64,000 bases of DNA from assembly GCF_000340215.1 (NCBI RefSeq), contig NW_006921534.1, positions 1,017,171-1,081,170 of the forward strand, in the 5' to 3' direction. The notes under the pieces are model-generated. The model did no database searches. It was not told where the DNA came from and saw nothing but the letters and a program-made list of their open reading frames with translations. This DNA is from Pseudocercospora fijiensis CIRAD86. Lineage: Eukaryota > Ascomycota > Dothideomycetes > Mycosphaerellales > Mycosphaerellaceae. A program made the translations under genes and the position numbers. Of the stretch, positions 5,986 to 63,655 are shown piece after piece (the stretch's first letter is position 1; every line of letters begins with the position of its first letter).

Positions 5986-6427
5986 ATTAGTTATTAGGTT
6001 AGGTATTAGTTTAGTTAGTCTTAGCTATTTAATAAACCGCTTCTAGTTCTGCGGGCTATAGAGCTTAGTTAGTCTATCTACTAGCATGTCCTATATAGCT
6101 AGGTATTTATATTAAATCCTTCTAGCCTTATATTCTTGCCTTAGCTAGCACTAGTAAATATCTATATAGCGGAGCTTCGTGTCTAGTTTGCTAGTATTAG
6201 CCTTAATAATGCGGATAGTCTATATATTATTATATTATAGTATAGGAAGGCTATCTAAGGTAAGGCTAATATTATTAAAGAAGCGCTTCTACTAGATTAA
6301 TTCTAAGCCTATATATAAGGCGGCTAGCAGTTTAGCCTTAGTCGTGGATTTAGTAATAGTAGACTATTATACTAATTTCTAATCGATTAGCCTATTAAAT
6401 AGTCTAAATATCTATCCTTCTAATAAC
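5986..6427 (-). pseudogene. copia RNase H, C-terminal piece
   Basis: Continues the RNase H frame interrupted at 16044. On the minus strand it gives STTKAKLLAALYIGLELI (the STxEAEYxAL...E box of copia RNase H), then KLRYIDIYQCQLR (KHIDIRYHF-like), then DMLVDRLTKLYSP (the D-M-L-A-D-x-L-T-K-P end motif of copia polyproteins). The reading frame ends near 5990. Several TAG/TAA codons interrupt it, mostly at Gln/Trp positions. It is the 3' end of the copia pol and sets the position of the 3' untranslated region and LTR to its left. Confidence 0.85.
6420..6427. repeat. Target site duplication of hAT-1, left copy
   Basis: CTAATAAC directly precedes the left TIR and recurs at 16036-16043 directly after the right TIR. 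Eight base pairs is the hAT target duplication length. Confidence 0.9.
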
Positions 6428-6599
6428 TAGACCCCGTAGTGGTTCGGGTTGGTTTGGTTTGGTTTGCTAAGCCGAAACTCTAGTTTAGTTTGGGTTGGTT
6501 TGCTAAGCAACCATATAAGTAGCTAGTTCGAACTATATAATTTATCGGTTTTTAAGAAGTGTACGAATGTATACGTAGCTTCAAGCAAGCCCTTTATAA

Positions 6600-6636
6600 G
6601 ACTCAGCAGTATAGCCGGCAGCGTGGCCGGCATTTT
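6600..6636. repeat. GCCGGC-type minisatellite cluster
   Basis: Units of the form TAGCCGGCAGCG lie upstream of the small plus-strand ORF. The sequence that follows (cggcatttttagtccttag) resembles that after the cluster at 7445-7500, so the two clusters share flanks. No splice signals were assigned here. Confidence 0.6.
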
Positions 6637-6774
6637 TAGTCCTTAGTACTTATAGAATTTTCGAATCCTACTTAGGCTACGTAGTTGTATAAAGGTACTT
6701 ATATAACCTTAAATCCATAGATAATCAGCTAAGGGCACTAACCAATCAAAAGCATATATATATACATATAAGGC

Positions 6775-6850
6775 ATTATAGTTTAGTTCGGAAACTGTAC
6801 TCCTTAGGTATGAATTTTATCCTTTCGTTTACGGTTCAATTCCCTAACTG
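6775..6850 (+). other. tRNA-like fragment (D-arm and T-arm/B-box)
   Basis: GTTTAGTTCGGAAAC can fold as a D-arm (GTTT/AAAC) and is followed about 30 nt later by GGTTCAATTCC, a match to the Pol III B-box and tRNA T-loop. The acceptor stem does not close, so this is at best a degenerate tRNA or tRNA-derived fragment. Confidence 0.3.
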
Positions 6851-6859
6851 CTTAGCAGA

Positions 6860-7318
6860 ATGTCTTTATCTAGATCTAGGCAGAACTTATCGATTTCCCT
6901 AGAAGTCCTCCTCCTTAAGAAGTTTATACACTTTCCTACCGAACTATTCGATAATATTAAGTACTAGGATAGCTCCTCCCTCGGTATCGGCATAGTATAT
7001 AAAAGAGCTATAAGGCAGCTCTATAGAACGTTCCACTAGTCACTCGCTATACTAAGGCCGAATGCTAGTTCGTTCCTTAGAACTCTTAGTTATTTAGGAG
7101 ATATAAAGGGTAGGGCAGGTAGTAACTTCGTATTATATAAGGAGGTAGAGGCTGCTATAGAAGAGGCCTTCAACCTATAGAAGATAGTAAAAGATATAGA
7201 GGCAGCTGCAGGTCTAGGTACCTAGTTGAATTTTCAGTAGGTAGAGTATAAGGATATTTAGAGGGAGTATTAGGTAGAGTTGCGAAGGCAGGTATATAAT
7301 ATGCTCTAGAAAACAGGG
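6860..7318 (+). pseudogene. Small unknown ORF of hAT-1
   Basis: An ATG at 6860 opens a frame of about 150 codons (MSLSRSRQNLSISLEVLLLK...) with roughly six TAG codons at likely Gln/Trp sites. Read through them, the product looks mostly helical, with a Tyr/Arg/Gln-rich middle and an acidic C-terminal half. I do not recognise a family. It is the only clear plus-strand frame in the element and keeps more CA/TG than its surroundings, so it is less mutated. GCCGGC repeat clusters lie on both sides (6600-6636 and 7445-7500). Confidence 0.45.
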
Positions 7319-7444
7319 ATAGTGCCTATAACTATAACTATTAGGCTCTTCAACCTTCCTTATTTTTCCCTGTTTTCTTTTTATAAAAATCTAAACTAAT
7401 ACAAATCAACCGGAATGTCTATCTTCTTTTAGTTCTTTAAAAAA

Positions 7445-7500
7445 CCTAGCAGCGTAGCTAGTAGCGTAGCCGGCAGCGTAGCCGGCAGCGTAGCCGGCCT
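7445..7500. repeat. GCCGGC-type minisatellite cluster
   Basis: About four units of AGCGTAGCCGGC, the same unit as in H3 intron 1 at 8041-8143 but in the opposite orientation. It lies between the small plus-strand ORF and the 3' end of the first H3 gene. Confidence 0.75.
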
Positions 7501-7723
7501 TTTTACTACTTAGTACTAACGGGATTTTGGGAGACTTCCATTCCGTACGGCCAATAAAGTATACTATACTATGTATATATACTTAGAGAGTATTTAGAGC
7601 GCGGTATATAGCGCCGTATAATAGCGGCTCATTTCGCATATAGAAAAGCTTGCAGATAACACTACGAACATCCTTTCTACTAGAACATCTATCCTACCTA
7701 GCACCGTCTCGAATATAGACATT

Positions 7724-8384
7724 CTAGCCTTTTAGAATCTAATCGAGTGCTTTGAAATCCTTATCTATAATCGTTATACGCTTCGCGTAGATAGCTATAA
7801 GGTTAACCGCTAAAATAGTATTAGTATAGTCCGAAAAGAGGTAGAAGAGAAACATACATTCGAAGATACGAACTAGGTAGGCTTCTATAGCCTCTTAAAG
7901 GGCGCCTATCGCGGAGGCTTAGAAGCGAAGGTCCGTTCTATAATCCTAGGCAATTTCGCGAATAAGTCGTTAGAAAGGAGCTTTGCGGATTAGGAGCTAA
8001 GAACTCTTCTAATACTGCCGAATCTTACGGAGGGCTACGGCTAAAGAAGGATTAGTAAAAAGATAGTAAGAATGCCGGCTACGCTGCCGGCTACGCTACC
8101 GGCTACGCTGCCGGCTACGCTGCCGGCTATAAATAGGACTTACTTCCTAGGCGCTATCGACGCTTCGCACGATTGCTACTAGTAGTAGAAGCGCTAGTTG
8201 TCGTCTTGCGTAGAGCCTTGCCCGCCGTTGTCTTACGCGGAGCCTTACTCGCGACGCCCTTTCTAGTACCGGAGCTAGCGGTAGTAGTAGTAGCCCTCTT
8301 ACGTTAATATACTATACTCGTTCTACTATTTCCGGTCTTATTGCGACCCGTAGAAGTACTAGGTCCCTTCTTACGAGGCGTCGT
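7724..8384 (-). pseudogene. Histone H3-like gene 1 carried by hAT-1
   Basis: Read from 8384 downwards. An H3-type basic tail holds GVASKAPRKTTAGKALRKTT. Removing intron 1 (8041-8143) joins RLGT to VALRKIRQY, matching the H3 PGTVALREIRRYQ box. Next come KSSxLLIRKAPFxRLIREI, then DYRTDLRF, ASAIGAL, EAIEAYLVRIFE. Removing intron 2 (7810-7857, GTATGT..TACTAAT..TAG) gives FESVNLIAIYAKRITI (H3 FEDTNLCAIHAKRVTI). Stops fall on conserved H3 glutamines (YQK, PFQR, AQD, RFQ, ALQE), as CAG to TAG RIP predicts. Loop 1 has canonical H3 length, so this is an H3 variant rather than an obvious CenH3. The start codon is not certain; the C-terminus departs from H3. Confidence 0.85.
8041..8143 (-). repeat. Minisatellite inside intron 1 of H3-like gene 1
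   Basis: A 103-nt intron with donor GTAAGT at 8143 and acceptor TTTAG at 8041, plus a TACTAAT branch-like site. The interior is about five units of TAGCCGGCAGCG. Its removal restores the H3 frame across RLG/TVALR, so the intron call is supported by the protein. Confidence 0.85.
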
Positions 8385-8419
8385 AACTTAGTTAAGTAGA
8401 CTCGCTATTATAAAAGTCG

Positions 8420-9640
8420 TCGAATTGAGGAAAAAAGTGCGTTACGAAGGTATACGAAGGCGCGCGCGGAGCGAGGGTGTTACGGAGGTAGTAGATATAG
8501 AGCGTAGAGGTATAGGTATCGATGCGAAGGTTGAATATAGCGGTAGTATCGCGGTATCGCTAGGTAATAGAGTAAGCTTCGCGCAAGCCTATATTATAGT
8601 AACGTTAGAGCAAGGAAAGAAGGCAGGTACGGCTAAAAAAGGTAGGCACGGCTAAAAAAGGCAGGTACGGGAGACTTTGAAATATAGCCGGCATATATAG
8701 CCGGTATAGTAATAGGCGAAAGCCTCCTTTTAATGAATAGCCGGCGTAATAATAGTATCTTACTATAGTATAGATATTCTTTAGTAATGCCTTTACTAGC
8801 TATAGTAATCTTATAAGTAACCTAGGCCTATTACTAGTAAATATAAGAAATATTAGGTAGGCTATACTAAACAAGCTAGTCATTTAGTAGGAAAAGGCCT
8901 ACTACCGTCTCTATATACCGGCTACGAGTGCCGGCTATCGCTCTAAATTCAACTCCGCCCTATCTCGGAGGCTAAGGTACCGAGCGGAAACCCTATAGCT
9001 TATATTCACTCGGTTATCGCGGAGCGCTTATAGGTAAGGTATTAGAAAAGAGTATAAAAAGTACGAGAAGAGTATCCTAGGATATAGGTCGTAAGTGAAT
9101 AAGAGTAGTACGCCTAGTTATTTATATAGTACGTTACTCTATACGACTAAGAGCCTATATTATCTTATGCTTCGCTTATAAGACCTCGACTCTACTAGTA
9201 TACTATCGATCTCTTCCTCGGTCGCTAATACGCTATCTTAATTCTTCTTCGAGTTGCCGGACTTAGTACGTATCTATAGCTATACAATAGCGCTACGCAT
9301 TATAGAGAATTTCTCGTTAAAGTTTCTCTCTCGTAGGCTTACTATCTGCCTCGTAGTATAGAGGATTAAAGTGCTAATGCTAAAGAATCTCCTTATAGTT
9401 AGGATGCTAGGGCTCCTTAGGACCTTTGTGTTTTAGGTCTAAATAGAGACGTATTATAAACGTTCTATCGCCCTTTCGATTACTACCCGCTAGGTCGCGA
9501 TATACGAAGAAACTAATCTGAATATAGCTCGTCTCTATAATAGCCGGGTAAATATAGAGCGCTAGGTTTCTACTTCGTACCTTAGATTTAGGGACGGCGC
9601 GGAGATAAAATCAGAAATGTAGCCGGTACCTATAGCCGGC
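8420..9640 (-). other. Unassigned coding-like block of hAT-1
   Basis: Between the two H3 genes. The minus strand at about 9540-9200 keeps one frame with stops only at likely Gln/Trp codons: FVYRDLAGSNRKGDRTFIIR, then LYLDLKHKGPKEP, then FNPLYYEADSKPTREKL. Below 9200 the frame is less clear. GCCGGC-type repeats occur near 8687-8712, 8921-8940 and 9622-9650. I do not recognise the family and cannot set the exons. A plus-strand open frame at 8425-8655 is a less convincing alternative. Confidence 0.35.
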
Positions 9641-9700
9641 AAAAGGATACGAAAATAGGCCTCCTCCTAGGTTAATCTAACGACTAAATACAATTTCTAA

Positions 9701-10294
9701 CTAATCCGCTATAAACCGACGCCGAATTTTAGCTAGAAGCTATATATCTTTATTTTAAAGAGTAACCCGCTTCGCATAGATAGTAAGGAGGTTTAAAAGC
9801 TTAAGCTCGGTTACGAGAAATGCCTCCGTAGCTTCCTAAAGAGCACTAATCGCCTTAGCCGTAAATCGTATACTAAACCGAAAATCTAATGTAATTTCTC
9901 GGACGAGTCGCTAGAAGGGAGTCTTAGGGATTAAAAGCTCGGTCCCTCTTTTATTTTAGAAAAGCCGGATCTAGCGAAGGGCAATAGTACCTAGTTTAAA
10001 GCGCCGCTTCTTTGTCGTCGAGTCCTGCCTTATTCCCTTTCTTTTAATAGAAAGATAACTTTTCTTCGCGATAGTCTTCGTCCGCCTACTCTTTTTAGCC
10101 TTCTCCTATCTACCTATAGCCTTCTTATTTTTCGGTACTGTTTTCCGAGGAACCCCCTTCCTTCGTATATACTACGGAGAGCCTTGCTCTTCCGATATCT
10201 CGTTCTCGCTACGGTCTCCCTATACTTAGCTTGCTTTACCCTTGCCCTTTAGCCTCTAAAGATATTTATCTACGCGTTTAGGCGACGAGGGCAT
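9701..10294 (-). pseudogene. Histone H3-like gene 2 carried by hAT-1
   Basis: ATG at 10294 (MPSSPKRVDKYL), stop at 9701: 197 codons, one exon. A long basic tail with RKGVPRKTVPKNKKA and IKRKGIRQDSTTKKRRFKLG leads into the fold. The fold reads GTIALR, TELLIPKTPFxRLVREITLD, FRFSIRFTAKAISAL, EATEAFLVTELKLLNLLTIY, AKRVTL, NKDI, LLAKIRRRF. Spacing matches H3 from the N-helix to helix 3, with no loop 1 insertion. About ten TAG/TAA codons interrupt it, many at H3 glutamines. The tail lacks the ARTKQTARKS start and the core is far from canonical H3. RLGT/KLGT before VALR/IALR is shared with gene 1, suggesting common descent. Confidence 0.85.
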
Positions 10295-12001
10295 ATCGGT
10301 AGGACCTAGAAAATTAATAAGTATATAATCGTAAGGAGACATTAATGCTTCTTACCTTCTAGAACAAATAGTCTTCTATTAAACCGCCTTATTAGGTTAT
10401 CGTTAGATTCGAATAAAGGATAGTAGCTTAAGGAAGGGGAGGTAGCCGGCTTAGGAAGGCCCGAAGAGCCGAATCCTTAAGGCATATTTGTCTTTAAGAA
10501 TATAGGGAAAGGGAAGAAGGAGAGGAAGAGCGAATAGAGAATTAGAAATAGTCCGTAGGTAAGCGGGGTCGGTTGCTATAGCAACTAGTCTGTTTAGGTC
10601 CTAGGAATTCGAAACATATTTCGGACATATGCCGGCTATATACGCCGGCTATATTACCTTATACGTAAACGCTTCGTCTCCTTAAAGCTGCTCTAAGCCT
10701 ATATACGTTTCCGCTTCTCGACCTAGTATCGCCTTCTGCCTCCGCCCTCCTCCTCTTCGTTATCGCTAATTAGGGTTTCGCTTAGACTAAATTTCGCATT
10801 CTCTTCGCGCTCCTAGGTTTCTTCGATCTTAAGGTTTTCTAATTCCTCGATTAACTCCTTTAGTATAATCTTTAGTAACCTGCCTTAGCGATTCTAGTAG
10901 AGGAGATAGTATCGGAATACTATAATAGATTCGAAGATAGTAGGCGAGTATATTCGATTAAAGCGGCCCTAGTAACGAGCGATACTAAAAGACCTCTTAT
11001 AGCCTATGCCTACGCTCGGGATAGCGAGGACGTCCCGAGCGACCGACGCTATCGTTAGAAACTTAGGCTCTAACCGCTACTATATAGCGAGAATATCGTC
11101 TCCGAATTCGTCTAGAAGACCGGAAAGATCTAGAGATTATTAGCCCTCTTTCCGAGCCTACGGGTTTATACTTACTCGCGCGCCGATAGAGATCGAACTC
11201 TTCTTTATTTACTTTAGTAGTTACTTCCTCTTCTACCTCTACTTCCTACCTACGAAACAGGTATAATATCGGAGCCTTCTAAACCTTCTTTTTCTTTATA
11301 GGAGCTGCATTTAGACTAGTTTCTTTCCGACGCTTATAGAACATCTTTTCTAGAACAGTCTAGTAATGCTTCGGCTATACCTCGTCCGCCTTCTATTCCG
11401 GCCTCTACTAGTATATATCCTTTTCTACCGGGTTAAGCAAGTACGCAACGCTATAGATATCCCCGAACGAGGTAAAGGTAGCACTATAATATTTATACAA
11501 CTTAGTATAGGAGGTGTCTATAGCTTTCGTTATAGCTACTTTCTAGGGAACGCTCTTCTTAGCTAGCTTAGCTACGGTTTCCTCGAGCTCGTTAAAGAGC
11601 TAGTTGTAGTACGTAAAGATAAGGTAGATCGTCGGTCCTCGGGTTCTTCTAATCGTAGTAGTAACCTTCGCGTAATGCTTACTAATATCGACGAGATACT
11701 CTACTTAGCGCTATTCGGCGGCGGTAAGGCCGAGCTACTTAATACCCTCGGAACTCTAATAGATCTCGAGAGCGGTACGTAAAGTACATCCCCTCGTAAC
11801 TATATAGAAAGTCGAATCGAACCGGGTCTTAACGTCTTAGGTAAAACGGAGTAGGCGCTAAGGAGGCCGCTTTTACTATCGCTTATTCTATGCGATATTC
11901 TAGGCATCGGTTTTAGGGCGCTCGATTAGGTTCTTTTAAATAGCCTCGAATCGGTTATATCTCTATAAGCTCGAGTTCGTATATATTACTAGACGACGAA
12001 G

Positions 12002-12070
12002 CTAGAGAAAAAGAGTTAGAACTATACTAGGTTACCGGCTATAGGTGCCGGCTACGGACAAAAGTTATAC
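12002..12070 (-). repeat. GCCGGC repeat inside a transposase intron
   Basis: A 69-nt intron with GTATAAC donor and CTCTAG acceptor, and a TTCTAAC branch site. It holds two units, GTAGCCGGC and TATAGCCGGT, between donor and branch site. Confidence 0.7.
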
Positions 12071-13025
12071 CTTATATAAAACGAGAGCGAGGCTCTCTGC
12101 CTTATCCCGTCTTATTGCTATAATAAGTTTCTCGACTTTCGACTTTGCTTTATCCTTATCTAGGATCTTCTATTAGTCGTCGTTTAATAGTGCAATTTTA
12201 AGCGTCTTAAAGAGGGCTCGGATCGCGATTTGAACTATATAAGCGAGGTAGGGAAACTTCTATAGGGATGTAACTAGCAACGACGTCGGCTCCGATTCGT
12301 TAGGGCTAGGGCTATTAATAGGCTCCTCTTTATCGTTATTATCGTACGTATTATCGTACGTATCCGGAATCGTAGCGAGCTTAATATTCGGAAGATTAAG
12401 CTAGATTGTAGACCTTATAATCTCCTCTACGCACTCGACCCTATCGATATAATTAGTAATTTCAAAGATATATACGAGTGAATTGTATATACAACGCCTT
12501 ATATAATGTTCGATTATTACTAGCGTTATCCGTAGTAATCGAGATCAGTTTCGTTATTACGCTAACCCTGTCTATTGCCGTATAGACAAGCTTCGCTATA
12601 TCCTTACTAGTATAGGAACCTAGAATTTTAGGGAATCCGATTATAAGTTCCTAGAGTTTCTAATCCGAATTAATAAAGTATAGCATAATCGAGAGGAAGG
12701 AGGCTCTTATAGTCCGGCTTAACTAGCTATCGATAGTAATAGCTACTCGGCGAGTATTACGGAGGATCTCCCGAATGTCGTCTAACGCAGCCTCTTTGTT
12801 CTTTTCGAATATAATACGCTAGGTTGTCGCGCCGAGAAATAGGGGAGGGTAGTTTGTAAGACATAGGTATATCTTCTATATAGACTCCCTTTCGTAGAAG
12901 TCTTCCGGAAGACCGTTTATAGCTAGCATTTCGTTTGCTAGTTGCTTAAAGTCTTCGGGGGAGAAATCGGTAGCCTTTAATCCTAGAGCTTCCTTAAGCG
13001 TAGCCTATAATAATTAGCTAGACCT

Positions 13026-13156
13026 CTACGGTTGATTTAAGTAGCCGGAATCTATAGCCGGAATCTGTAGCCGGAATCTGTAGCCGGAATCTGTAGCCGG
13101 CAGCTATAGCCGGTAGCTGTAGCCGGTAGCTATAGCCGGCATTTTAGAAGACGTAC
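13026..13156 (-). repeat. GCCGGC repeat inside a transposase intron
   Basis: A 131-nt intron with GTACGT donor and CCGTAG acceptor. It carries about eight units of GCCGGCTAYAGMT form. The branch site is less clear (ATCAAC). Confidence 0.65.
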
Positions 13157-14485
13157 CTCTTTCTAGAACGCTGTATCTATATTAACTCTCCTCTCTCCTT
13201 AAGATTCCCGATACCGTTTAGAATAGAGATAGTTCGTAGGCGATAAGTTCCTATCCCCTAGTTTCGGGTATTTTAAGATTAAACCGTAGAAGTTGCAGAC
13301 AATTACTAGTTAACCTTTAAGTCGAGAAGTCGTATAACGGTACAATGCCCCCTCTATAAAGAACTTCTAGAATATATCCGTTCGCTCCTTACTCCCCTAT
13401 CGCATCGAGTACTTCCGGAGTTTACACTCCTTCGAACGTAAGTATAAAGGGAACTATATCTTATAGACCTATTAATTGAACTGCTCTATATACTCGGGTT
13501 TCTAAAGATACGCCTAGCTAGCCTTTTCGAAGATTTCCGGGTTAATACTCGATATTCTTATATCTCCGAACAACCTTCTACTTAGACTCCGTAAAGGTAA
13601 GGACTAGGTAGTAGTACCCTATAATGAATTCCTACTACTAGGATTCGGAGAGGATAAATCTAGCCCTAATCGTCGTCTAGGACTCGATAGGCTCGAAGGT
13701 AAGTATGCGACCTCTTCTCGACGCTATCGCAATCTCGCTCGTATACTAGACTGTTTCGACTATCGTCTCGTTATTACCCTTCCTAGTATAGCGCCTAGTG
13801 TATATACAATGTCGGTCGGTATGTTTTAAGGTTTCGTACGGTAAGGTAAGGACTTAGGAGTAGTAGATATATACTAGTAGCTATAGGGAAACACCCTTTC
13901 TTTTATAGTATCGTATCGTTAGGAACAGCTAGGTAGTAAATAGCTAGCTACCTTTTTTTTTGTTTCCTAGCTACCTAACTACTAGATTTTTTTTCCTAGC
14001 TACCCTAGCTAGCCTAACTACTAGAATTTCTTTCCTAGCTACCCTAACTACCTAAATTTTGCCTTCTATACGGCGGCTCTCTCCTACTAACGGAACCGAG
14101 CTACTATACCTAACGAATCTAAGCTCGTTTTTAGTCTTAATCTATCCTCTTTCGGTATAAGACACTCGATAAGCAAATGCTTAGGCCGAGTCTAACTACG
14201 AAACCTAAGACTAACTAATAGCTCTATTAACTAATCCTAATCCTCGAACTCCTTCCGCTTCTTAGTAAAGACCTTAAAGAGCGCTCGAGCTTCTTCGGGT
14301 ACCTACGGAGTAGTCGAGATAAAGCCGTATCGCTGAAATAGGTAATCCTTCGGAGGCTTATATAGAGATTTAGAGAATTCTAACGCTAACCTATCCTACT
14401 AGTAGCTTAGATTCCGGATATAAGCCCTCTCTGCCTTAGTAAAGATTTTATATAGTAGTAGCACTCTGCCTTCGAGAAACGCTTT

Positions 14486-14551
14486 CTATTTAACTGTTAG
14501 TATCTGCCGGCTACGAACGCCGGCTATATATACCGAGTATAGAATAATTAC
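14486..14551 (-). repeat. GCCGGC repeat inside cargo-gene intron 2
   Basis: A 66-nt intron, GTAATT donor, AAATAG acceptor. TATAGCCGGC and CGTAGCCGGC precede a perfect ATACTAAC branch site. Confidence 0.7.
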
Positions 14552-15032
14552 CTGTACCCCTTCCTCCTATAGTAACACTTCTGCCGTCCCTAGATACCTA
14601 GCCCTAATCGCATTAATCGCAAGCTACTTTGCCTTTATAGACGTAAAGGCTTCGCTCTAATACTAATAAAGAAACTTCTACTCTATATCGAGGATATAAA
14701 GACGACTAGTCTCGATTCCAATCCTTGCTAGCTTTTCGTAGTAGCTTTAACTATGATTTTCTAGATTGATAGGACTTATGCCTTAGCCCTTTACTAGTAT
14801 CTCGTCTCTTTAACTATACTCGATCCACTCCTAGCGCTTATCGTCTATAGCGTTACGCCCTAAGACTGTACCTATTACTAGATCGACGTATAGTATCTCC
14901 TCGCTTTTTTTAGTTCCTTTATTCGTAGTATTAAGCTCTATCGCGGCATCCTAAACTCTAGTATTGTTATTCTCGGCTATCTAAACATCTCCGTTACTAT
15001 CGGTCGTATCGATAGAGGTAGCGGCTACAGAT

Positions 15033-15139
15033 CTAAATGCTATTAGTTAACGTATTAAAGAAAAATATGCCAGCTACAGCTGCCGGCTACGGCTGCCGGC
15101 TATAGCTACTAGCTACGGCCGCTAGCTAGATTAACTTAC
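15033..15139 (-). repeat. GCCGGC repeat inside cargo-gene intron 1
   Basis: A 107-nt intron, GTAAGT donor at 15139, TTTAG acceptor at 15033. It holds about four AGCCGGCAGC-type units, then a TTAACTAAT branch-like site. Confidence 0.7.
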
Positions 15140-15599
15140 GCTACTAGAACTTTACGCTCGAAAACTAGCCGCAATTCTTTCCTCCTCTTAGCCTTCTCTT
15201 AGGTTGTCTTCTTATTCTAACCTTCACTTTTTTCTATAGGCGCTAGCTATCGATAGAATGCCTTATTCCGCGCCTTTCTTCTCTTATCCTTAGCTCTTTT
15301 ATCCTTATCTATCTTGTCCTTTCTCTCGCGGTCTCGTACGGAATTCTTCTTCGTAGAGTACTCCTCTTTAGTCTTGCGCTTTTTAGTTAGACGCTTAGGT
15401 AAAACAAACTCGCGGTCTTTAGTTCTATCTTCTATTTAGCGCGCGGCGCGCTTCTCTCTTGCTATTATAAGGGAAAGGGGCGGGGGCGTAGCGTATAGTA
15501 GTTGTTGTCGGTATAGGTATAGAGGAAGAAGTTGAAAGTATAAGAATATCGCGAAGCCCTAATTGTTGCCGCCTACGTAACGTTATATAGGTAAGCTTT

Positions 15600-15900
15600 C
15601 GTAACTACGGCAACTACGCCCCGGTAATAGCAACTACGCCCTAGCAACGGCAACTACGCCCTAGCAACGGCAACTACGCCCTAGCAACGGTAATAAAGCG
15701 TAGTAAATACAACCTAGTAACTATTATAGCCGGCAATCGTAGCCGGCAGTCGAATAAGAGTGTCCTTGTAGTAAAACTACGCCCTAGCAACGGCAACTAC
15801 GCCCTAGCAACGGCAAAAGAGCGTAGTAAATGTAATAGAGTTACTATTATAGCCGGCAATCGTAGCCGGCAGTCGAATAAGAGTGTCCTTATAGTAAAAC
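15600..15900. repeat. Subterminal tandem repeats of hAT-1
   Basis: A 20-bp unit, CAACTACGCCCTAGCAACGG, is repeated about four times near 15600-15690 and again at 15775-15815. A longer block of about 120 bp (short units, GTAGTAAAT, ATTATAGCCGGCAATCG, ending GTGTCCTT) occurs twice, near 15680-15775 and 15800-15900. These lie just inside the right TIR, where transposase-binding repeats are typical. Confidence 0.75.
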
Positions 15901-16035
15901 CAATACAGTCTCTAGTTCAAACTAGGAATCTATATAGTTCGAAAAAACCAAACCGGAACTAGGGAGCTAGTTCGCCGCTAAGAAACCAAACTATATACGT
16001 TTAGTAGTTCGGAAACCGAACCACTACGGGGTCTA

Positions 16036-16043
16036 CTAATAAC
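16036..16043. repeat. Target site duplication of hAT-1, right copy
   Basis: CTAATAAC, identical to 6420-6427. Confidence 0.9.
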
Positions 16044-36479: not shown

Positions 36480-37887
36480 GCCAAGAAGTTACGTACCTGT
36501 CATGTGACTGAGCTAACGCGTCACATAGGATTAGGACCTCTCTAGCTTTCGGCGCGTCGCTGCCAAGCGAAACTCTGCCTCACCCAACTTCCTCCTTCCT
36601 CCTTTCCTCCTTCCTCCTTCCTCCTTCCTCCTGGCTTCTACCCGCTGTGACATCACTTCAGATTGGCGCCCTACACAGCATTGATGGAAGAGACACACAC
36701 TTCGCCGTCAGAGCTCTCGACAGTCACGGCCCTGGAGCCCCATTAGACCGGGTCATTCTGGCCACCTTCCCACCCTGCATATCGCGACCGGAGTTCTGAG
36801 CCCAATATTGACCTCAACATTGCAGGCCGTACAGCGCAGCATTACGCCTCAGGAGCCAGCTGGGCCTTGACGACATGATACGACGCACTCTGTGATGGCC
36901 ATTGAGGCGCACACTGGAAGTTGCCTGCTAACATCTTGTATGCTGAGGGCTGAGTTCTTGACGACCTTGCAAATGCCAAATTCTCCACGACCTGAGCGCT
37001 GTCGATTCTCCTCTCGTCGACCAATCCCATGCCAAAATCGTGCTTGAATCGCTGTTTCGTCTCTGGGCCCTATTCGACTTCGGCGAAATTCGGCACGTAC
37101 GGCGGGATGCTCTCTCGCCTTTGGAGCCTCAGTCTGTAGCAGCCGGAATGGAGACATCTGATCATGGTGCGAATTCCACGGCTCTTAGGCGTCTGCAGGA
37201 AGAGAATCGCCTGCCTGGGACACTGTGATGCAATGAGCTGATTTCTTGCAGATGTGGCAATGCTTCACGAATGCTCCGTTACGTCGTGCTCTTTTCTTCA
37301 ATGTGTCTTCGAGTCCCTCTCAGCTACCCTCTCAGACACTCTCATCACTTCCATCCACCCGTCTGTATGTATTGTCGAAGATGGCGGAGACCAAGTCCCT
37401 TGGAGCCCCGTAGGGGACCAGCATCCTATGTGCTTGGTCCCAACTCCTGGCAAGCGGCTAGCACATGGGCTTTGTCTAGATACCGCCTCTGTTCCGCATG
37501 CCCATGACACGTGAGTCCAAAGTACTCCTGTTCGATCGTAGGTCCATAGATGCGGTTCCCAATTTGTGTGCGGTTTGCGTATGCATGCGGAGCCGATCAA
37601 TGCCGAATCCCTGCCGCTTGTCATAAGCAACACATATTGTCGACCTACCATCAAGAGGGGTAAGCTAGCTACACCATTTGAGCGGTTAAAGAGGAGATCT
37701 CTGAGCCGAATCAGGCATTCGCTGATACCAGAAACGCTTTCACACCACTCACCAGGCATGCGACCTTTCACCCCTCCATGCACGCGGCACCGCACCGAAC
37801 CCGCATTATGGACTTCGCAAGCCATTTTCCAGTGCATAAAGAACACGTCTTCTCGAGGAGCCAGATTAGCTGCCTGTACACAACCAC
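36480..37887. other. Intergenic DNA upstream of the monooxygenase gene
   Basis: Base composition changes sharply near 36465-36490: CA and TG return and RIP marks end. Overlapping open frames of 60-180 codons on both strands lack family features and overlap each other, so I call none. The region must hold the promoter of the gene starting at 37888/37936. A (TTCCTCC)n tract is at 36589-36632. Confidence 0.5.
36589..36632. repeat. TTCCTCC polypyrimidine microsatellite
   Basis: About six imperfect copies of a 7-bp pyrimidine unit, in unmutated DNA just right of the transposon block. Confidence 0.8.
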
Positions 37888-39997
37888 ATGAGCAGCTCTA
37901 CTCCAGCAATTCGAGCAAAAGACAACGCAACAACCATGGGTACTCCGGGCAGCATCACCAACCCGAAGCTCAAGACTCAGCTTTGGGAATATGGCAAGCG
38001 TAGAAGAACAGATGGGCCGTATGCAGACAACCTGGAAGTCGATGCCCTTGTCGTCGGAGGTGGCTTTGGAGGTGTCTTCTGCTTTCACTCTTTACGCCAA
38101 GCAGGTCTGAACACGGTGTGTTCATGATGAGCGATATCATTGAGAACTTACTGACACCTGTAGGCAATCTACGAAGCTGGCACGGATCTTGGAGGAACAT
38201 GGCGATGGAATTGCTATCGTCAGTGGATATCACCATGCTTATCACCCATATCAGACTGATAAGAATCCAGCTGGAGCCATGGTCGACTCTGAAGTTCCCG
38301 AGTACCAACTCTCAATTCCTGAAACATGGAAGACGTACGTGCTCGGGTTCCAGGCATGTAGAGAGAGCTCTTGCTAAGTTTCCCAGATACAACTGGCCAA
38401 ATAATTATCCAACGTATCGAGAGCTCAGAGACTACTTCGACCATTGCGACAAAGTCCTGGATATCAAGAGTCACACTGCGTTCGACAGTGTGGTTGTTGG
38501 TGCTGAGTTCGACACCGAAGCAGGCAAATGGCATGTCAAGACTGCAGATGGCAGGACTGCGAAGACCAAGTACCTTGTCATTGCCGCCGGATTTGCGGCA
38601 AAGCGATACGTTCCCGATTGGCCAGGCCTCGAAAAGTTCAAGGGTTTCGTGTCTCATTCGTCGTTCTGGCCCGACGATGAAATCGATGTCAAAGGGAAGC
38701 GTTGTGCAATTATTGGGACAGGTATGGAGTGTCGGCCCACGTCTCTCTCACGTCACTGACTCACGTTCTTCCCACCAGGCGCCTCTGGCGTGCAAATTAC
38801 TCAAGCATGGGGCCCGACCGCTGGCCAGTTGAAGGTGTTCCAGCGCACACCTAACCTGACTGTACCAATGCGTCTCCGAAACCTTACAGTCGACGAGCAA
38901 ACTGAAGGCAAGAAATGGTACCCAGAACTGTTCGACCTACGTACGTCCCACTCTTCATCAAAATACTTCGTGAACTTCACTCACATGATCAGGCGAGCGA
39001 TGCTTCGGCGGCTTCCTTTACGACTTCTCCGAGAAAATGACCTTCGAAGACAGCCCGGAAGAACGCGAAGCCTTCTTCGAGAAACTTTGGTCCGATGGCG
39101 GTTTCCGTTACTGGCTGGGCAACTACAAAGATTACCTCTTTAACGCCAAAGCCAATCGTGCAGTTTACGACTTCTGGCAGAAGAAGCAGGCCCTTCGACT
39201 GAAAGATGCACGCAAGCGCGACATTCTCGTACCAAAGGAGCCACCGCATCCATGGGGAGTCAAACGTCCATGCCTTGAATATGGATATTTGGAGCAATTC
39301 AACCGAGACAATGTCGATGTTGTTGACATCCGCCACAACCCCATCCAGGAGTTCAATGAGAACGGTATCAAGCTTTCCGATGGTACTCAGCATGACTTCG
39401 ATGTCATATGCATTGCTACTGGCTTCGATGTTGTCACCGGTGGCATGACTGCTATGGGTCTCAAAGCTCTCAATGGCGAGCAATTGGAGAAACAATGGAA
39501 GAAGGCGGCTTACACCTACCTCGGCACCACTGTGGCTGGATATCCCAATATGTTCCATCTATATGGACCACGTAAGTCGGATCACTCTCCTACGGGGTTT
39601 GTGCATACTAACACCATCCGCAGAGGGTCCAACTCTCCTTTCCAATGGTCCAACTTCAGTCGAAATCCAAGGCCGCTGGATCACCGACGCAATCAAACTT
39701 TGCGAGCGTAATAACATCAAATACATCAACCCAACCGATGCTGCCAGCAAGGACTGGAAGCGCAAGATCAATGCTTTGAGTGACAGATCTCTGTTCCCAA
39801 CGACGAAATCGACGTGAGTTCAGTCAAACGTGGCATCGATACAAAACATGACTGACACATATCACAGATACATGGGCGGCAGCTTGCCTGGCAAAGCCTT
39901 CGAACATACTTGCTATGCCGGCGGCATGTACAACTATGCTCAGGAGATCAGAAGTGTCTTGCCACATTTCGAAGGATTTGAAGTCGTCAAGAATTGA
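37888..39997 (+). CDS. Baeyer-Villiger flavin monooxygenase (type I)
   Basis: Eight exons; introns 38116-38163, 38219-38270, 38335-38386, 38722-38778, 38941-38992, 39572-39623, 39814-39867; stop TGA at 39995. 580 aa from ATG 37888, or 564 aa from the in-frame ATG 37936, which has the better start context. FAD site GGGFGG (37-40 codons after 37936), NADPH Rossmann motif GTGASG across intron 4, and the full type I fingerprint FKGFVSHSSFWP (38637-38672); DVICIATGFD near 39400-39431 is the C-terminal flavin motif. The family inserts oxygen next to ketones using FAD and NADPH. Intact and free of RIP, in a 4-kb island between transposons. Substrate unknown; cyclohexanone/phenylacetone-type relatives are the nearest concept. 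Confidence 0.93.
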
Positions 39998-40496
39998 ACA
40001 CATGGGCAATCGCTCTCCAATTGAAACGTCGTCTAGCTCATTACGATAGCTCGTTTGATTTCGCCGTGCAGCCAAGGCTTACTTCTCCTTCTTCGCTTCT
40101 TTAGTCTCCTCCGCCTTACCATCATTCTCGGCTTTCTTGGCTTCGGCCTTGTCATCCTCCTTGCCTCTCAGTGGGATATCAGCCTTCTCCTCGGCCTTTG
40201 ATCCCTCCGTTTCTTCTTTCTTCTCTGCATCTACATATTAGTCAGCTGTCACATGCCTCAACACTCTGCATCAGAAACACTCGCCAGGCTCCAGCCTATT
40301 CTCCATAGATGCGTCTACCCCGTCATCGCCCTTTTCAACAGTATCCTCCACCTTGCCACCCTCTTCGTTCTTGCCGCACGAACAGGCGCGATCTGTCGCG
40401 CCATCGAGCTTCTCGCCTTTCTTCGAAACGATGACAGTCTTATCTGCTTCGTCATCATCGGCCGCATATTCAGCATGCTTAGCTTTCTCCTCGTTC

Positions 40497-40504
40497 TTCA
40501 CTAT
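40497..40504. repeat. Target site duplication of hAT-2, left copy
   Basis: TTCACTAT, repeated at 44423-44430. Confidence 0.88.
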
Positions 40505-44170: not shown

Positions 44171-44242
44171 AGCAATATAGTGTAGTAAACAGTACGTTAA
44201 CTAGCTATAGTTAAAGACTAAGGTTCAATTCCTTATATTGCC
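44171..44242 (+). tRNA. tRNA-like gene or relic inside hAT-2
   Basis: 72 nt with acceptor stem AGCAATA/TATTGCC (6 of 7 pairs; the open pair fits a G to A RIP change), D-stem GTGT/GTAC with 8-nt loop, anticodon stem TTAAC/GTTAA, T-stem TAAGG/CCTTA with loop TTCAATT, then a TTTT run at 44244. The anticodon loop has 8 nt and no proper U33, so no amino acid can be assigned and it is probably degenerate. Confidence 0.4.
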
Positions 44243-44422
44243 CTTTTCTTTTGCTATTCTACTGCTATTTTTTTGCTATTCACCTTCCTTTTGCTAATTA
44301 TATACAAATTGACCTCCGCGGAAGACTGAATATTGAATATTTACCTAAATATAGGCCGTTGCTATATTTAGAATATTAAATATAGGCGCTACTAACTGAA
44401 TAATCATTATTCAAACTCTATA

Positions 44423-55259: not shown

Positions 55260-56248
55260 GTGCTCCGGTTACGCTTTCCTTGGCATTCTCACGTATTCTG
55301 CAAAACCCAGTAAGGTGTTAGTGAATTGTCGAGATGCCGTGCATGCACCTTGCCCATAATTTGTATTCTGGTTCTGACAACGTTGTGGTAGAATTTGAGC
55401 GAGGTAGCTTGTCTTGTAGGATCTCAAGGAGAAGCAAGAGCTTTTCATCATGAGGTAAGCCTTGGAATGGCTCGAGTCTTGCTTCTTCGATCGTTGCACG
55501 CTCAGAGCCAGGGAAGGCTTGTGCAAATCCACGAGCTATCTTCTTCCATTCGACGTCTGTCCAGAAGGGCGTTGATAGGTGGTTAAAGTCCCACGGAAAT
55601 TTCTGGTCTGCTAACGTGTTGATTCGATTAGTTGCTTAGGATTATATAGGCTTATTCTGATCCTTTTTTTTCAACGAGCGTGTGAGTTACGAGCGCAGCC
55701 CAAATTGTGAGGCAGAGATTTATAGATACTACTAGGCCGCAGATATTTCATTACTAGGCATATACAGGCAAGCTGTAAGCTTTTTATAAACTCTTCATCC
55801 TAGCCTTGTCGCCGCGCAATGGATTGGCACCTTCTCGTAGTGCGCGGTGTAATCAGTGACTCCTGAAGTCTGAGATTCGGCCTCGCATGCGCGATGTTGC
55901 TGCAATCAAACGTCACAGGCGGCGAATTCAGCTGTCACCATACTCCGAAGGGCTTGTCATCCAAACGTAGGACTGGGAAAACGTCGACTCGGATGCGCGA
56001 AAAGAAAATTCACCTCGAGGCCGCAGAGTGCGACATCGTCAGCTCATACAGTACCTAGTCAAAGCTACCCCAAAACGAAGACTGCGTTTTGATTGACATG
56101 TGTATAGTGGCCATTCCCAAGCCAGGACCACTTCCTCGAGTCCCTTGAGTGCAGTTGTATACATGTGGTCACGTCCTTCTGTTCTGCGCTAGAACGTGTT
56201 GGATTCTGCGGCTTTTCAACCTTATCTGCTTGATCTCTGTGCAGAGTT
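55260..56248. other. Intergenic host DNA
   Basis: Normal CA/TG content resumes at about 55260. Short overlapping frames at 55269-55586 and 56065-56430 have no family features, and the latter overlap the end of the DUF3429 gene. I call no gene here. Confidence 0.5.
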
Positions 56249-57459
56249 CTACTCTTCGTCTTCACCCTCATCCTCACCCTTGGAAGCGAGGAACTTCCTC
56301 CTGGCTTCCTCCTCATTCTCAGATTCAACTGCCTGCTGCTCACGCAGCTGACGAACCCGGTCGGCTGGGCCTGGAAGACGTCCAACACGGTCAGATACCT
56401 GACCACGACCAATCAAGGAAACCACGATAGAGGCGCCAACAATGAAGGTAAGGACGAAGCGGTAGACGCCGTACCAGCCCGGTGCCCAACCCTTCTTCGA
56501 TGCGCGCGAGTCGGTGTAGTAGAGGAAATTGAAGATGAGGAACTGGGAGATCAGAGCGTACTCGACGGGCAGGAGGATAGTCGGCCAGGCAAGCGCTGTA
56601 GAGATGACACCTAGATACCGCTACGATTAGGGAGATAAATATATAGGGGAATATATAGTAGACTTACCAATGGCATAGCGCGGGTAGCCCTGTTCACCAC
56701 CGTACTTGGCCCATTCGAGACCCCAGTGGATGGCGCCAAGGAAAGATATGATCTGAGAAAAGGGTTAGGAGAGAAGCATGATGGGTGTTGTGCGTATAGC
56801 TATGCTCACAGTAGCGCCGTAGCCGACCTGCAGAGGCTCGAGGATCTGGAGAACAAGCTCGGCAGTCTTTTCAGTCATCAAGTAGCCTCCATTGTGGATT
56901 TCCCATGCGCTGTAGACGGTAGCAGCCGATGTCGCGGCATATGGAAGTACACCAGCCAAGCCGATGTAGTATGCCTGGCGAGGTACTTCCTCCAGGTTGA
57001 AGGTATCACGGATGGTTTGCTGTGATCTCGTCAACGCCCGCTCTCACCATACGCGTCTGTGCTTGTCGTGTCTATGCATACCATATCAGATCTAACGCCG
57101 GCCATCATGTCTGCGTCCTTCTCAACTTCCTCGGCGCCAATCTCGCCACGAATCGGGTGCGTCGAAGAGGCGCTACTAACGAGCTCTGGATGCGGCGTGA
57201 TCGTGTTTCCACGGATGGCAGCTTCATGTTTCCTATCAACTGCATCGTACTGGCCTGGTTTTCGCTCGTCGGCAAACCGCGCGACCAGCATTTGTGATGC
57301 CAATGGCTTGGCGAGAGCGGACAACTGCGGTCGACGAGCGACGGTGCATAGTTGTGACTTGCATTGTGCGTGGATGGGCGAATTCACGGCGCGGAAAGCG
57401 GGTTGAAAGGAGGCATTGAGGGAGCGCAAAGCGGTGCGCGACGCACCGGAGCGGAACAT
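56249..57459 (-). CDS. DUF3429 / TMEM69-like mitochondrial membrane protein
   Basis: Four exons (57459-57082, 57019-56810, 56752-56668, 56610-56249), introns of 62, 57 and 57 nt, 344 aa. The start MFRSGASRTALRSLNASFQP is Arg/Ser/Ala-rich without acids, typical of a mitochondrial targeting peptide. The DUF3429 core follows: VPRQAYYIGLAGVLPYAATS (membrane segment), ISFLGAIHWGLEWAKYGG (family signature), ISTALAWPTILLPVEYALIS, and a fourth membrane segment FVLTFIVGASIVVSLIG. The C-terminus is a charged helix ending EDEGEDEE. The family is an inner-membrane protein of poorly defined function. Intact, no RIP. Confidence 0.9.
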
Positions 57460-57542
57460 TGTGGCCAGTGGAGAGCTGGGATGGTGGTGGCGGTGAGATC
57501 AACGTGTTCAGTGGGCGGTCGAGACAGGATCAGGTGGGGTGG

Positions 57543-57590
57543 AGTGGAGAGTGTCAGTGGCAGTGGCAGTGGCAGTGGTGGTGTCTTCAC
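57543..57590. repeat. GTGGCA/AGTGGC hexanucleotide repeat
   Basis: Short (AGTGGC)n tract just upstream of the DUF3429 gene, in its promoter or 5' UTR. It accounts for the Gly/Ser and Pro/Leu repeat frames called on both strands. Confidence 0.7.
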
Positions 57591-57937
57591 TTTGCTTCGC
57601 AGCTCGGAACCATGAAGCAAAACGCCAAGCTTTGACGCCAGAGCTCGAGCTCCGAACCCAGGTCAGAACTCAATTCATTTGCACACAAGTTGACTGCACG
57701 ACTCTGGTATCATTATCTGTGCATATCTGACTTACATGCTGTAGTAAGCTGGGAGTGCTGTAGACAACTATCCTGGAGTCGCGGACAATCGCTCCTCCGA
57801 AAGAAAATCCTTTTTCGAGCCTCGCTCCCATGTCTGGAAATCTCGTGCTGTGCTCCGATTCCACAACTCCATCTAATTCCGCTTGGCCCGTCCTATTACG
57901 CCTGATGATTTAGCAAAGCCTCAGTCCATAGCGCTCG

Positions 57938-59583
57938 TCATAGCAATAGTGCAGCAATACTTGCGCTTTCGTCTGTCGAAGTTACTGGAACGCTGGTCAG
58001 CACTCCTGGCTGATGCTGTTTCATGATGACATGCTCGACCGGCCACTCCACCCAATGCTTCCAAACCTCGTCCAGATCGCCAATCACGTCCGTCAACACC
58101 CTCGCCGCCCATCCTTGAATCCACCACCTGTCGTCCAGAACGTTGAGGAGAACGCAGTAGTAGGCAAGTATGATCAGTGCTTGAGGCACTTTTCTTTTGA
58201 TCAGACCAGCAAAAGTGGTGGAGTCCTGCTTCGGAAAGCACAGAATGTTGGCAACACTGCATCCACCCTGCGTCTGAAGGACCGTCTGATAGATCTGCTT
58301 CAATTCGGCCAGCACTATGGCACAGCTTCGCCTTTCCTCGTAAATCATGGCCTCTACGCCTAGCATGAAGTCAAGGTGGCCAAGGCCGAAGTCCATGCCA
58401 TCTGGCAATGGATCGTACCTTGAACGCCTTTTGTCAGCTTCACATTCATATGATTGAGCATTCACAAACTCACCCGCTCATGCTGGCAGTTACCGCCTCC
58501 TGGAATCCTCTGCTAAGAATGGGCGCCAACGGGCCTTGTGCAACCCAGTACCAGGTGTCACTGACGATCGCATCGATGCCCTTTACAAGCATGAAGAGCT
58601 CGACAATTGCATCCATGGGAGGTATGCTAGGTGGTACAGCATATGCAAATAGTGCGACAAGCCAAGTGAAGGCGAATTTTGCGTTTGCGTTTTCTGCTGT
58701 AGCTGGAGCTCCTCGATCCTGCCTGTACAGGACTAGAGCCTTGTCAAGATGATCCACTGCAGCAGCTTGTAAGTATCCTGCATTTGGGGGCTCCAAAGTC
58801 GCTTTGTGCAGTGCCGAGAAGCCAAGCAGGCCGTGCATCACATAGTCGTGAGAGAAGGCAACCTTTGGTATCTCGTGCCGCCATACTCGCATGATGTACT
58901 CTACGTCGTGGTCCTCGGTCATCACGTACTTAGCGTGCAACATATAGTGATGCATCAGCTGCAAATCCAGTTGCCAGATTGAGTCCTGGTTCATAGGTCG
59001 ATCGATCTGACCCGTCAGAATTGCGAAGGGATTCGGGGACGCTGGGCTGTGAGCGACAGAGGCTGTCGAGCTTGATCCCGCGGCGTCTATGGTGGTTGCT
59101 GCCGGTATAGCATTTGGCGATCTCGATGTCGTCGAATTTCTGCGCGCTTTGGCATCTTCTCGCGGCACAAACGGCCCGCCTGCCAGTGAGCAAGCGACGC
59201 CATGTCGGACGCAATTTGAACAGGGAGCTTCTTCGTTGCACTGAGAAAGATGTCAGGACTCATGGTCTCTAATATTTGGAGAGGTGGCGCTGAACGAAGT
59301 ATCTAGCAATGCAAAGCTCGTTATTTCACGCCTGTGGTTGCAATTCTTGCAAGCAACCGGGAGGATGCATTATATTGCCATGCCGTTCAACACCACGGCG
59401 CCTCTCCTTTGGTGGATAAAGCACAACACACGGAACTCTCGGGCCACGTACCTTCACGTGTCTTCGTTTACACTGCGCGCAACCTTTTCTGGACTTCTTA
59501 TGGCCGACGCGTGGTGCTCTGCTCACAGATGCATCCATCAGTTTCCAAGATGACCAAGATGGAGGTGCCTGAGTTGACAACAT
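57938..59583 (-). CDS. Zn2Cys6 fungal transcription factor
   Basis: Three exons (59583-59452, 59240-58474, 58418-57938), 459 aa from ATG 59583; ATGs at 59736 and 59538 are in-frame alternatives. KKSRKGCAQCKRRHVK, then across the 211-nt intron CNEEAPCSNCVRHGVAC, gives the complete six-cysteine cluster C-x2-C-x6-C-x6-C-x2-C-x6-C. The C-terminal part (DLQLMHHYMLHAKYVM, HDYVMHGLLGFSALHKA, WYWVAQGPLAPILSRGF) matches the regulatory domain of UPC2/sterol-regulator-like C6 factors. It would bind DNA in the nucleus; targets are unknown. Intact. The first intron is long for this locus, so exon 1 could differ. Confidence 0.88.
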
Positions 59584-59739
59584 CGATGTCCAAGTAACGA
59601 TGCAGAACACGAGAGTCTCATACTTCCCGACGGCGGACCCATTCAATTCCGAATGTTCAGCAGTAATAACGGCAGGTGTAGGAGACTTGGTGACTGCTGC
59701 CTGGGACGCGTTGTTCACGTCGTGCGTAACGGGCATTCC

Positions 59740-62700
59740 AGGCGAAGCATTCGAGCCTATTGCCGTTGTGGGATGGTTGCTGAAATCATGTCATGAATGG
59801 TGGCTATGAGTCGACAGAGAGAAGAAATTAGAACAGGTTGCGTCACACCTGGGACCAGTGCCTGGATTCCCTATGGCCACTGCAGCACGAGGACATGTAC
59901 AGCTGGAGGTATCGCAGCGCAGGGCAGTGTCAATCGGGCCGCTTGGCTTGTACCAGTGAGGCTCATCTTGAAGCTGAAGCGAAGGGCTGGAGGAGGACGC
60001 GAATGCGAGCACGATGCAGTCGGCTAGACTGATCTTTTCTTGGCACACATCCCTGCAGGTCGGACTTCAAATGCTTGAAACACCGATGGGCGGCTTCTTG
60101 CTGCCCTGGGTGCCATCGCAACACCGCGCACACTATTCTCTGCGATATAGACGAGTTCCGCTCCCCATCAAAATCGCCCCAGTGCTCGTGAACATCACCA
60201 GAACGCTCGTGCCGATCATACCCAGTCGCTGAATCCTTCATTTCGGCCCGGTGCAGCTTGTTCCAATCCTGCTCACACCTCCATCCGACCTGCAGTCCAC
60301 GGCAATCATATTGCTCCTGAACTTCTTCATTTTTGGCCGCTTGGGGTGTCTATCACCGGGCACGATAGGAATGCGGCCAAAACATCATTGCCGGCGCACA
60401 TACTGAAAACATCGACCACCCGGACGAATGGCTGTTCCGCCCGAATACGTACAGAACACCGGTGACCGTGGCGAAGCACAGCAATATCGCAAGCTCTTCT
60501 GATCATCATCATCTAGGCCACCTGCACCGTGTCTTCGACCTGACAGCTGAAGGGACGAAAAAGTCCTTGACTGAAATGGACACACAGTGAGTGTATCACG
60601 AGCAGCCACGTGGTCACAGTGGCTTGTCAGTACCAAAATCGTGCTTGTGACTGGCCTTAGTATGACTTACGGCGAGACCGAAACAACTCGTAGGTGCTGC
60701 ATGGCTTCTCGACAACATGCCACACCCGAGCAGCATTCCTGCTGAATCGTCACATACTCCGGTTCTCGGCAGCTGCAAGCCACGAGCGCGCAAAGGTGCT
60801 GTAGCGAGGCCCTGCAGCGGCCAAGACTTGATTTTGTGACCATAGCTAACAGAACGAGCATCTCTGCTCTGCCTTGACCTAAGGTGGGGTGATGTCTTTG
60901 CACGGTAGCACATCTACACCTATTCGTGGACGCTATGCTCTTCTCAGTATGTGCGATGGGACACTTCTAAAACGCTACATCCAGAATTTGCGCACTTTGG
61001 CACATCGCAAAGGCTAGTGTTCACCGGAATCGGAATGGCGAACATCTCAAGATTTTTGCTTGGCATTTGTCGCCATTCACCAAGCTCTTCCACAAGCCAG
61101 GAGGGAATGAATTGAAACATCTTTCCCCACACTTCATAGGGCTTGATACACATGCCGCACACGGCAGGAGGCCGTTTGCCTTTCCAGGTCGCAGATCATT
61201 CAGCAGAGTCTCCGATGATGTCGTGTGATCCTCGAGAATATGCACCAGAAGGTCCCCACGTTGCATATGCTCGCGCCGCCGCAGATACTCAGTCATGGAC
61301 AGCAGGCACATGGATCCTTTACACTGCGCCTCGTGTCACGAAACCATCCTTGCCGACCTGCCGGAGGCTTAGTACGCGACCAGTCAGCACGCCTTCAGGC
61401 AGCTATATGACAGCCAGGATCCGTTCGCATGGTCAGACAACATGCGAGCCCTTCAGCAGCTAGGATCTCACTTCATGCGGGTGACGGACGCTGTGACACT
61501 CTCGCCTCGACTGTAACCACCTTGTTCAGCCCTTGCTCTGACTTCGCCATGCGACCTCTCCAATGTACCAGTTTCAACACATATCGTCATACATGCAGCC
61601 ACATCATTGATGAAGCTGAGCACTACTCCATTGCCTCGGTAGCTGTGAAAGATGCAGAATCGTATGATTTGGGATCTGGCTTAAGTCTCAGGACAGCAAC
61701 TGCTCTACTGGACCTTCTTCACTCAGGCTCCAATACTTCTCATGTGAGCGCCTGGTGATTCGAATCCCCTGGCTGCGCATTGGCGGTCCGATTGACTCCC
61801 TGAATCTTTCAAGCCGGCTAGGGATGACACATGGCGGCGGCGCAGCAAGCCTTGGCTGCCCACGAGTAGCCTAGGACTGGATATCACGCAGTCAGACATT
61901 ACAGCAGCCGATGTTTCCTTGCGGTTGGCGGGAGTCAATGGCAGGCGTAGCGCAAGAGTGGGCATCTTCAAAGCACCATTCCTCATCAGATAGCCGACAC
62001 GGCCGATACGAGTAATCATCTACATGCCATCTCCAGTAGTGTGCTGGAGCCTCAACTCATGGTGTAGCGGATGAGGAAGCGTTTCATTTAGTGTTCAAAA
62101 GGTTTCAGGGCCGCGAGAGTACAATTCAGCGCTTCCGGGCCAGAATTGGAGAGTAACAGCTGCTGACGTTTCACAGTCGTGATTGAGCGAAGGCTCCTAC
62201 TCGGAGAAAGAAGTTGTTGGACTTGTTCGTCAGCGAAACCAAACCCCATCTGAGCCCTGGTCAAGAATTGTTATTGAAAGAGGTAGCTTCGCCTATGAGC
62301 AAACGACTTACGGGCCTTGGGCCTTGTGCATCAATGTCCTCTCAGCCTTCGCCATTGCCGACAGTCATCCCTGATATATACGCTCCGGTTCGAAATAGGT
62401 GACGATGTGGGCACTGTACTAGTGCAGTCCTCTGCATCACTATCATCAATCCAGGCGACTATTCTCTAAACGATGAGTGACACCACGTCAAGGCAACAGC
62501 CGAATTACCCAAATACTTAGAACGGCTGTCCATGTTCATTCACGAGAATTGGTGAGATTTATTCGACAGCTCGCTGAATCAATAATTCCCAAGTTCTGCA
62601 AGTATCGCACAGAGCGCAAGGAGTCAGCTTCCCACTGGTCTTCCGAGCAATCTCGCGGGTGAAGATGCGCCAAGCAGCAATTATACTCCTCTTCGTCTAT

Positions 62701-63650: not shown

Positions 63651-63655
63651 CGGTG

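Follow-up and report, generated by a model that had tools for sequence, protein, structure and literature searches.

We conclude, with a probability of roughly 85%, that the 64,000-nucleotide stretch of Pseudocercospora fijiensis CIRAD86 DNA analyzed here (the window) holds a full-length, RIP-mutated copy of the histone H3-carrying hAT transposon family already published for that species. According to the initial annotation, no described hAT element was known to encode core histones. This was mistaken, because the sections available of two reports describe such elements (PMC6710886; PMC3538342), and the headline is therefore not new. The features of the element and its insertion site are as follows.

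6420..6427, no strand: target site duplication CTAATAAC, left copy
6428..16035, no strand: full-length hAT element, 9,608 bp, delimited by TIRs, duplication, and collinear sister copies
6428..6447, plus strand: left terminal inverted repeat (TIR), 20/20 identical to the right one
7724..7809, minus strand: H3a candidate exon 3 (end of the fold)
7810..7857, minus strand: H3a intron-like gap 2, 48 nt, GTATGT...TACTAATACTATTTTAG
7858..8040, minus strand: H3a candidate exon 2 (first part of the fold)
8041..8143, minus strand: H3a intron-like gap 1, 103 nt in the window, GTAAGT...TACTAAT...TTTAG
8144..8384, minus strand: H3a candidate exon 1 (tail; 5' limit uncertain)
9701..10294, minus strand: H3b, one frame of 197 codons with RIP stops inside
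10803..13783, minus strand: hAT transposase gene in several exon-like blocks, placed by eye and mapped from a sister copy
14086..15444, minus strand: ORF-X, unknown gene-like blocks with limits drawn by eye
16016..16035, minus strand: right TIR, 20/20 identical to the left one
16036..16043, no strand: target site duplication CTAATAAC, right copy

Short TIRs and 8-bp target site duplications (TSDs), both characteristic of the hAT superfamily, were found at the element. The perfect 20-bp TIRs and the 8-bp duplication claimed for it were verified in the window, where the TIR pattern has two matches compared with 0.01 expected (up to 3 mismatches); 8-bp duplications also flank all six fetched copies and one copy of subfamily B. 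RIP indices of 1.85 for TpA/ApT and 0.32 for (CpA+TpG)/(ApC+GpT) show that the element is strongly RIP-mutated. As read from the flanking sequence, the insertion splits a copia element, as had been proposed: when the flanks are joined to give the empty site, a copia RNase H-like reading is continuous in one frame (judged by eye). The Pfam family RVT_2 was found in the right flank only, and the left flank is without any Pfam match.

Further copies were surveyed in one genome of 73.9 Mb, that holding the window. The TIR has about 804 matches (up to 2 mismatches) compared with two for the reversed pattern, and the form with CAG has 88 exact matches. Two sites in the TIR vary across the genome copies, in agreement with what is described in the available part of PMC6710886. 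Each of the six other full-length copies that were fetched has a perfect 8-bp duplication of its own. The window copy and five of the fetched copies align to the copy at C1:10992420 at about 93–96%, with some local duplications, and these alignments run through both H3 regions. That sister copies, each with its own duplication, align in this way places both H3 genes within the element, as initially annotated.

The 181 listed TIR ends, out of about 804, formed 38 adjacent pairs, 29 of them 9.0–10.6 kb apart and nine shorter. An H3b match or reading was present in 28 of these 29 full-length pairs: a scored match in 26, a reading broken by a frameshift at C1:10992420, and a 96% match at C7:693468; the remaining pair (C14:456472-466283) gave no match to the element at the two 0.8-kb places probed. 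Histone-less copies, which would speak against the initial annotation, were thus not found among the full-length pairs. None of the nine shorter pairs, which measure 373 or 393 bp in seven cases, 3.5 kb in one, and 5.2 kb in one, had a scored H3b match, and neither H3 was matched in the three that were fetched. Elsewhere in the genome, the H3a region has full-length matches at 95–100% (40 scored of 602 candidates) and the transposase region has matches at 97–100% (40 scored of 407 candidates). A genome search with PF00125 (150 scored of 772 candidates) gave 148 matches with in-frame stops; the other two are host genes, one of them an intact host H3 on contig 6. The TIR, histone, and H3a matches across the genome rule out a capture unique to the window locus. 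A plasmid search gave no match, and no copy of the element was recognised among the best 120 of 6614 protein matches to ten H3b readings.

A six-frame read-through of 8,880 of the 9,989 bp of the sister copy at C1:10992420 gave PF00125 (Histone) as the sole Pfam family at E ≤ 0.01; it matched two frames of the minus strand, with E values of 3.2e-27 at H3a and 9.4e-15 at H3b. The PDB matches listed, 60 for each gene, are all named H3 variants. In alignment, loop 1 of H3a and H3b has the length found in H3, unlike that of the host CenH3-like gene at C5:606604; neither the longer loop 1 nor the CENP-A-like sequence of a CenH3 was found. Loop 1 length and the PDB matches listed rule out a CenH3 identity, and an interaction with centromeres, which had been suggested initially, is not favoured because both genes resemble H3 and not CenH3. 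Fold identity to host H3 is 52–66% in three H3a readings and 54–56% in three H3b readings, and that between H3a and H3b is 57% in subfamily A and 49% in B; all of these figures are lowered by RIP.

H3a had been annotated as an H3 gene in a single frame at 8384–7724. It is an H3 gene, but the frame is instead divided into three exon-like pieces by two gaps. The gaps carry splice signals that match what we take to be the fungal-type consensus, and on their own these signals suggest that H3a may formerly have been spliced. Gap 1 is 79–103 nt long in the A copies, 103 nt in a B copy, and 69 nt in a C copy, where it ends in CCTTAG; it lies in phase 1, the same as host H3 intron 2, and one codon from it. 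The 5' end of gap 2 is intact in two of seven A copies and RIP-altered in the other copies read. Without both gaps, H3a of C1:10992420 gives one H3 fold (PF00125, E 6.7e-31). The absence of introns expected of an H3 retrocopy was found for H3b and not for H3a, so the gaps argue against a retrocopy origin of H3a, although not of H3b. The tail of H3a can be aligned with that of H3 and contains a repeated KAPRKTTAGK-like unit, the number of which differs between copies. The gaps would also fit introns gained after capture. The 48-nt gap corresponds in length to 16 codons and is probably the 16-residue "insertion" of the published description, as far as that is available (PMC6710886).

H3b is a single frame in every subfamily, with 197 codons in A, 189 in B, and 194 in C. 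About 65 residues unlike H3 come first, followed by RRTKTIAKKSY and then the fold; by our own reading of the sequence, RRTKTIAKKSY resembles the H3 N terminus. The frame holds 12 stops in 198 codons and the five remaining frames between 6 and 21, so it is not marked out by stops; the annotation of an H3 gene at 10294–9701 is borne out by the PF00125 profile match (E 4.1e-24 in the window) and by the conserved frame.

The transposase assigned to the element was also confirmed by homology. Its read-through in a sister copy (residues 200–917) matches an intact Penicillium canescens protein with 24% identity over 93% coverage (E 1.3e-42), and this homologue carries Dimer_Tnp_hAT (PF05699), the C-terminal dimerisation domain of hAT transposases. 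Direct Pfam matches were below the cut-off, at E 0.045 for Dimer_Tnp_hAT and E 0.14 for DUF659. For ORF-X, no homologue was found at E ≤ 1 among 1808 candidates, a weak null result because the query is RIP-damaged.

Three subfamilies, about 80% alike, retain both H3 genes in the copies read: A, which holds the window; B, near C12:620129; and C, near C13:442289, which came from the H3b search. The searches with a B query had 40 scored matches each, from 415 candidates for H3b and 602 for H3a. A and C are 77–84% alike to B, and one B element is about 8.6 kb with diverged TIRs and its own duplication GAAGTAAA. Among the copies read, all three subfamilies have both H3 genes as well as the two H3a gaps; B and C are represented by few copies, with H3a read in one copy of each.

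RIP makes transitions, and selection between subfamilies was therefore assessed from the ratio of nonsynonymous to four-fold transversions. The H3 genes show little significant constraint between subfamilies, in contrast to the transposase, for which the A-B ratio is 0.54 (p 0.022); that of ORF-X is 1.06 and not significant. H3b ratios are 0.80–0.88, none of them significant for the whole gene or by part, and 2.80 in another alignment, also not significant; codon-position counts for H3b agree in giving no significance (tail, p 0.85; fold, p 0.18). For H3a, the B-C ratio is significant (whole gene, 0.43, p 0.028; fold, 0.34, p 0.019), the A-B and A-C ratios of 0.77 and 0.75 are not, and the A-B comparison of fold positions 1+2 with four-fold sites gives p 0.046. 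Between H3a and H3b within subfamilies, divergence of the fold is 0.36–0.37 at four-fold sites and 0.15–0.17 at positions 1+2 (p 0.009–0.016), although the four-fold figure would be inflated if the two genes were separate captures. Coding indels, with H3a left out of the coding blocks, are multiples of three in 7 of 8 cases compared with 9 of 42 elsewhere (p 0.0007) when narrowed exon limits are used; the limits were narrowed after a first count, which gave 7 of 11. The A-B indels of H3b are multiples of three in all three cases under either set of limits. Two indels, each of 3 nt, lie inside exon 1 of H3a; an extra 21-nt gap there is a cutting artefact. Together, the ratios and indels indicate that the H3 genes remained open yet evolved rapidly.

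These data are best accounted for if the hAT element acquired an H3 sequence long ago and came to carry two different H3 genes, the spliced-looking H3a and the intronless H3b. Both would have been copied along with the element as it split into subfamilies, their coding frames remaining open while they drifted from host H3, and RIP would last have put stop codons into the copies. We infer past splicing, of H3a, and past expression. Dhillon et al. read the histones as pure passengers: by chance the element captured a transcript or retrocopy of a host H3, which was multiplied without having any role and was inactivated by RIP. We consider this quite possible, if somewhat short of an even chance. 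It fits the lack of introns in H3b and the absence of significance in the H3b ratios (0.80–0.88 and 2.80), whereas the transposase ratio is significant. It sits less well with the two intron-like gaps of H3a, the first of which shares its phase with host intron 2 and is one codon away from it, with the retention of both genes in three subfamilies, and with the H3b A-B indels. The lower divergence at fold positions 1+2 than at four-fold sites between H3a and H3b also counts against it, subject to the inflation that separate captures would bring.

A role for the histones is the more doubtful proposal. The variants might aid the element against host silencing, for example by entering its nucleosomes or by offering decoy tail lysines, but we regard this sequence-based idea as unlikely. 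The alignment of the H3a tail with the H3 tail, with its unit in varying number, and the retention in three subfamilies would be expected under such a role, and according to the part of the report available, the Pyrenophora hAT element also has an H3-like gene (H3L) with ESTs and tail insertions (PMC3538342). Against it, constraint is weak or unproven and every copy read is mutated. In a fuller version, the histones would not be chance passengers but established genes, once expressed, of an ancient hAT lineage in Dothideomycetes: a spliced H3 whose tail multiplies a lysine motif and an extended H3 lacking introns, both retained while the subfamilies diverged because they aided the element against silencing by host chromatin. 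This version is similarly improbable. It is next to impossible that the H3 sequences belong to the host and adjoin or underlie the transposon at the window locus alone: both H3 regions recur in sister copies that lie elsewhere and have different duplications, which rules out host histones beside the element, and contig 6 carries the intact host H3. The preferred reading remains that of a full-length member of the published family, mutated by RIP, and the broader question raised is whether a histone encoded by a mobile element can serve that element against silencing.

In the sections available, the P. fijiensis hAT element of Dhillon et al. (2019; PMC6710886) is 9.5–9.9 kb, with 20-bp TIRs containing two RIP sites, 8-bp TSDs, and one or two H3-like sequences each; the copies, numbering in the hundreds, are RIP-mutated, 784 H3-like copies were counted in 471 elements, host H3 was placed on scaffold 6, and similar events were reported in five further species. 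The H3-like sequences were described as intronless with a 16-residue insertion and were proposed to derive from a captured transcript or retrocopy. The window element agrees with that account in TIR and TSD length, size, copy number, variable TIR sites, and host H3 contig, and judged by these described features it is very probably the same element. Our analysis differs in that H3a looks spliced, subfamilies are seen, and a C-terminal hAT match is seen where the dimerisation domain was reported as not found in the P. fijiensis hAT. The intron-like gaps of H3a, three subfamilies, the tail details, and the H3-not-CenH3 type were not found in the open-licence PMC literature, as far as its text was available. 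The accepted captured-transcript account would have to be corrected for H3a if this gene of the element was indeed spliced.

Manning et al. (2013; PMC3538342) describe, in the sections available, a Pyrenophora tritici-repentis hAT element with a transposase, a central ORF, and an H3L with ESTs; its tail has insertions and it was considered neither H3 nor CenH3. There are elements of 5.6 and 2.3 kb and 26 nearly identical, mostly intact copies. Set beside it by description, the window element is analogous, with a hAT transposase, an additional ORF that has no known function, and an H3-like gene whose tail carries insertions, whereas the Pyrenophora element is smaller, has one H3L, is mostly intact, and has ESTs; Dhillon et al. 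reported no similarity between the P. fijiensis and Pyrenophora hAT elements (PMC6710886). Hane and Oliver (2010; PMC3017866) describe the Stagonospora nodorum repeat R25 as RIP-degraded, with weak similarity to a DNA transposon and histone H3, and reclassified it as a presumed endogenous gene region. It resembles the window element in its RIP degradation and H3 similarity but, in the text available, is not termed a hAT with H3. Pyrenophora H3L, and perhaps Stagonospora R25, raise the question of whether such transposons repeatedly carry H3 as a functioning gene.

Transversions between the window's own hAT subfamily (A) and subfamily B are rarer in the two intron-like gaps of H3a, one of the two element-borne histone H3 genes, than in the adjoining H3a exons, with 0/48 in the 48-nt gap and approximately one in the other. 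This scarcity relative to the exons is unexpected if the gaps are introns. Short repeats such as GTAGCCGGCAGC are found both inside and between the gene-like blocks of the element, their number differs from one element copy to another, and several seem to be intronic, including in the first H3a gap. GCCGGC occurs at 27 sites within the element (window 6614–15865).

The full-length sister copy L037 (contig C15:229392 of the same genome) has the target duplication GACTTACT; because this duplication and the flank point to the first H3a gap, we suggest that L037 is a nested insertion within that gap of another element copy. Among the scored hits, subfamily A copies were widely dispersed over contigs, whereas B copies were concentrated on a few (C11, C12, C17, C20, and C23) and C copies lay on C13.

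A putative gene-like reading lies close to the element's left end, and a tRNA was annotated elsewhere in the window:

6860–7330, + strand, gene-like reading (read in a sister copy)
44171–44243, tRNA

Outside the element, window positions 36500–40500 and 56000–64000 have raised G+C without the signature of RIP, the fungal repeat mutation process, and are perhaps host gene islands.
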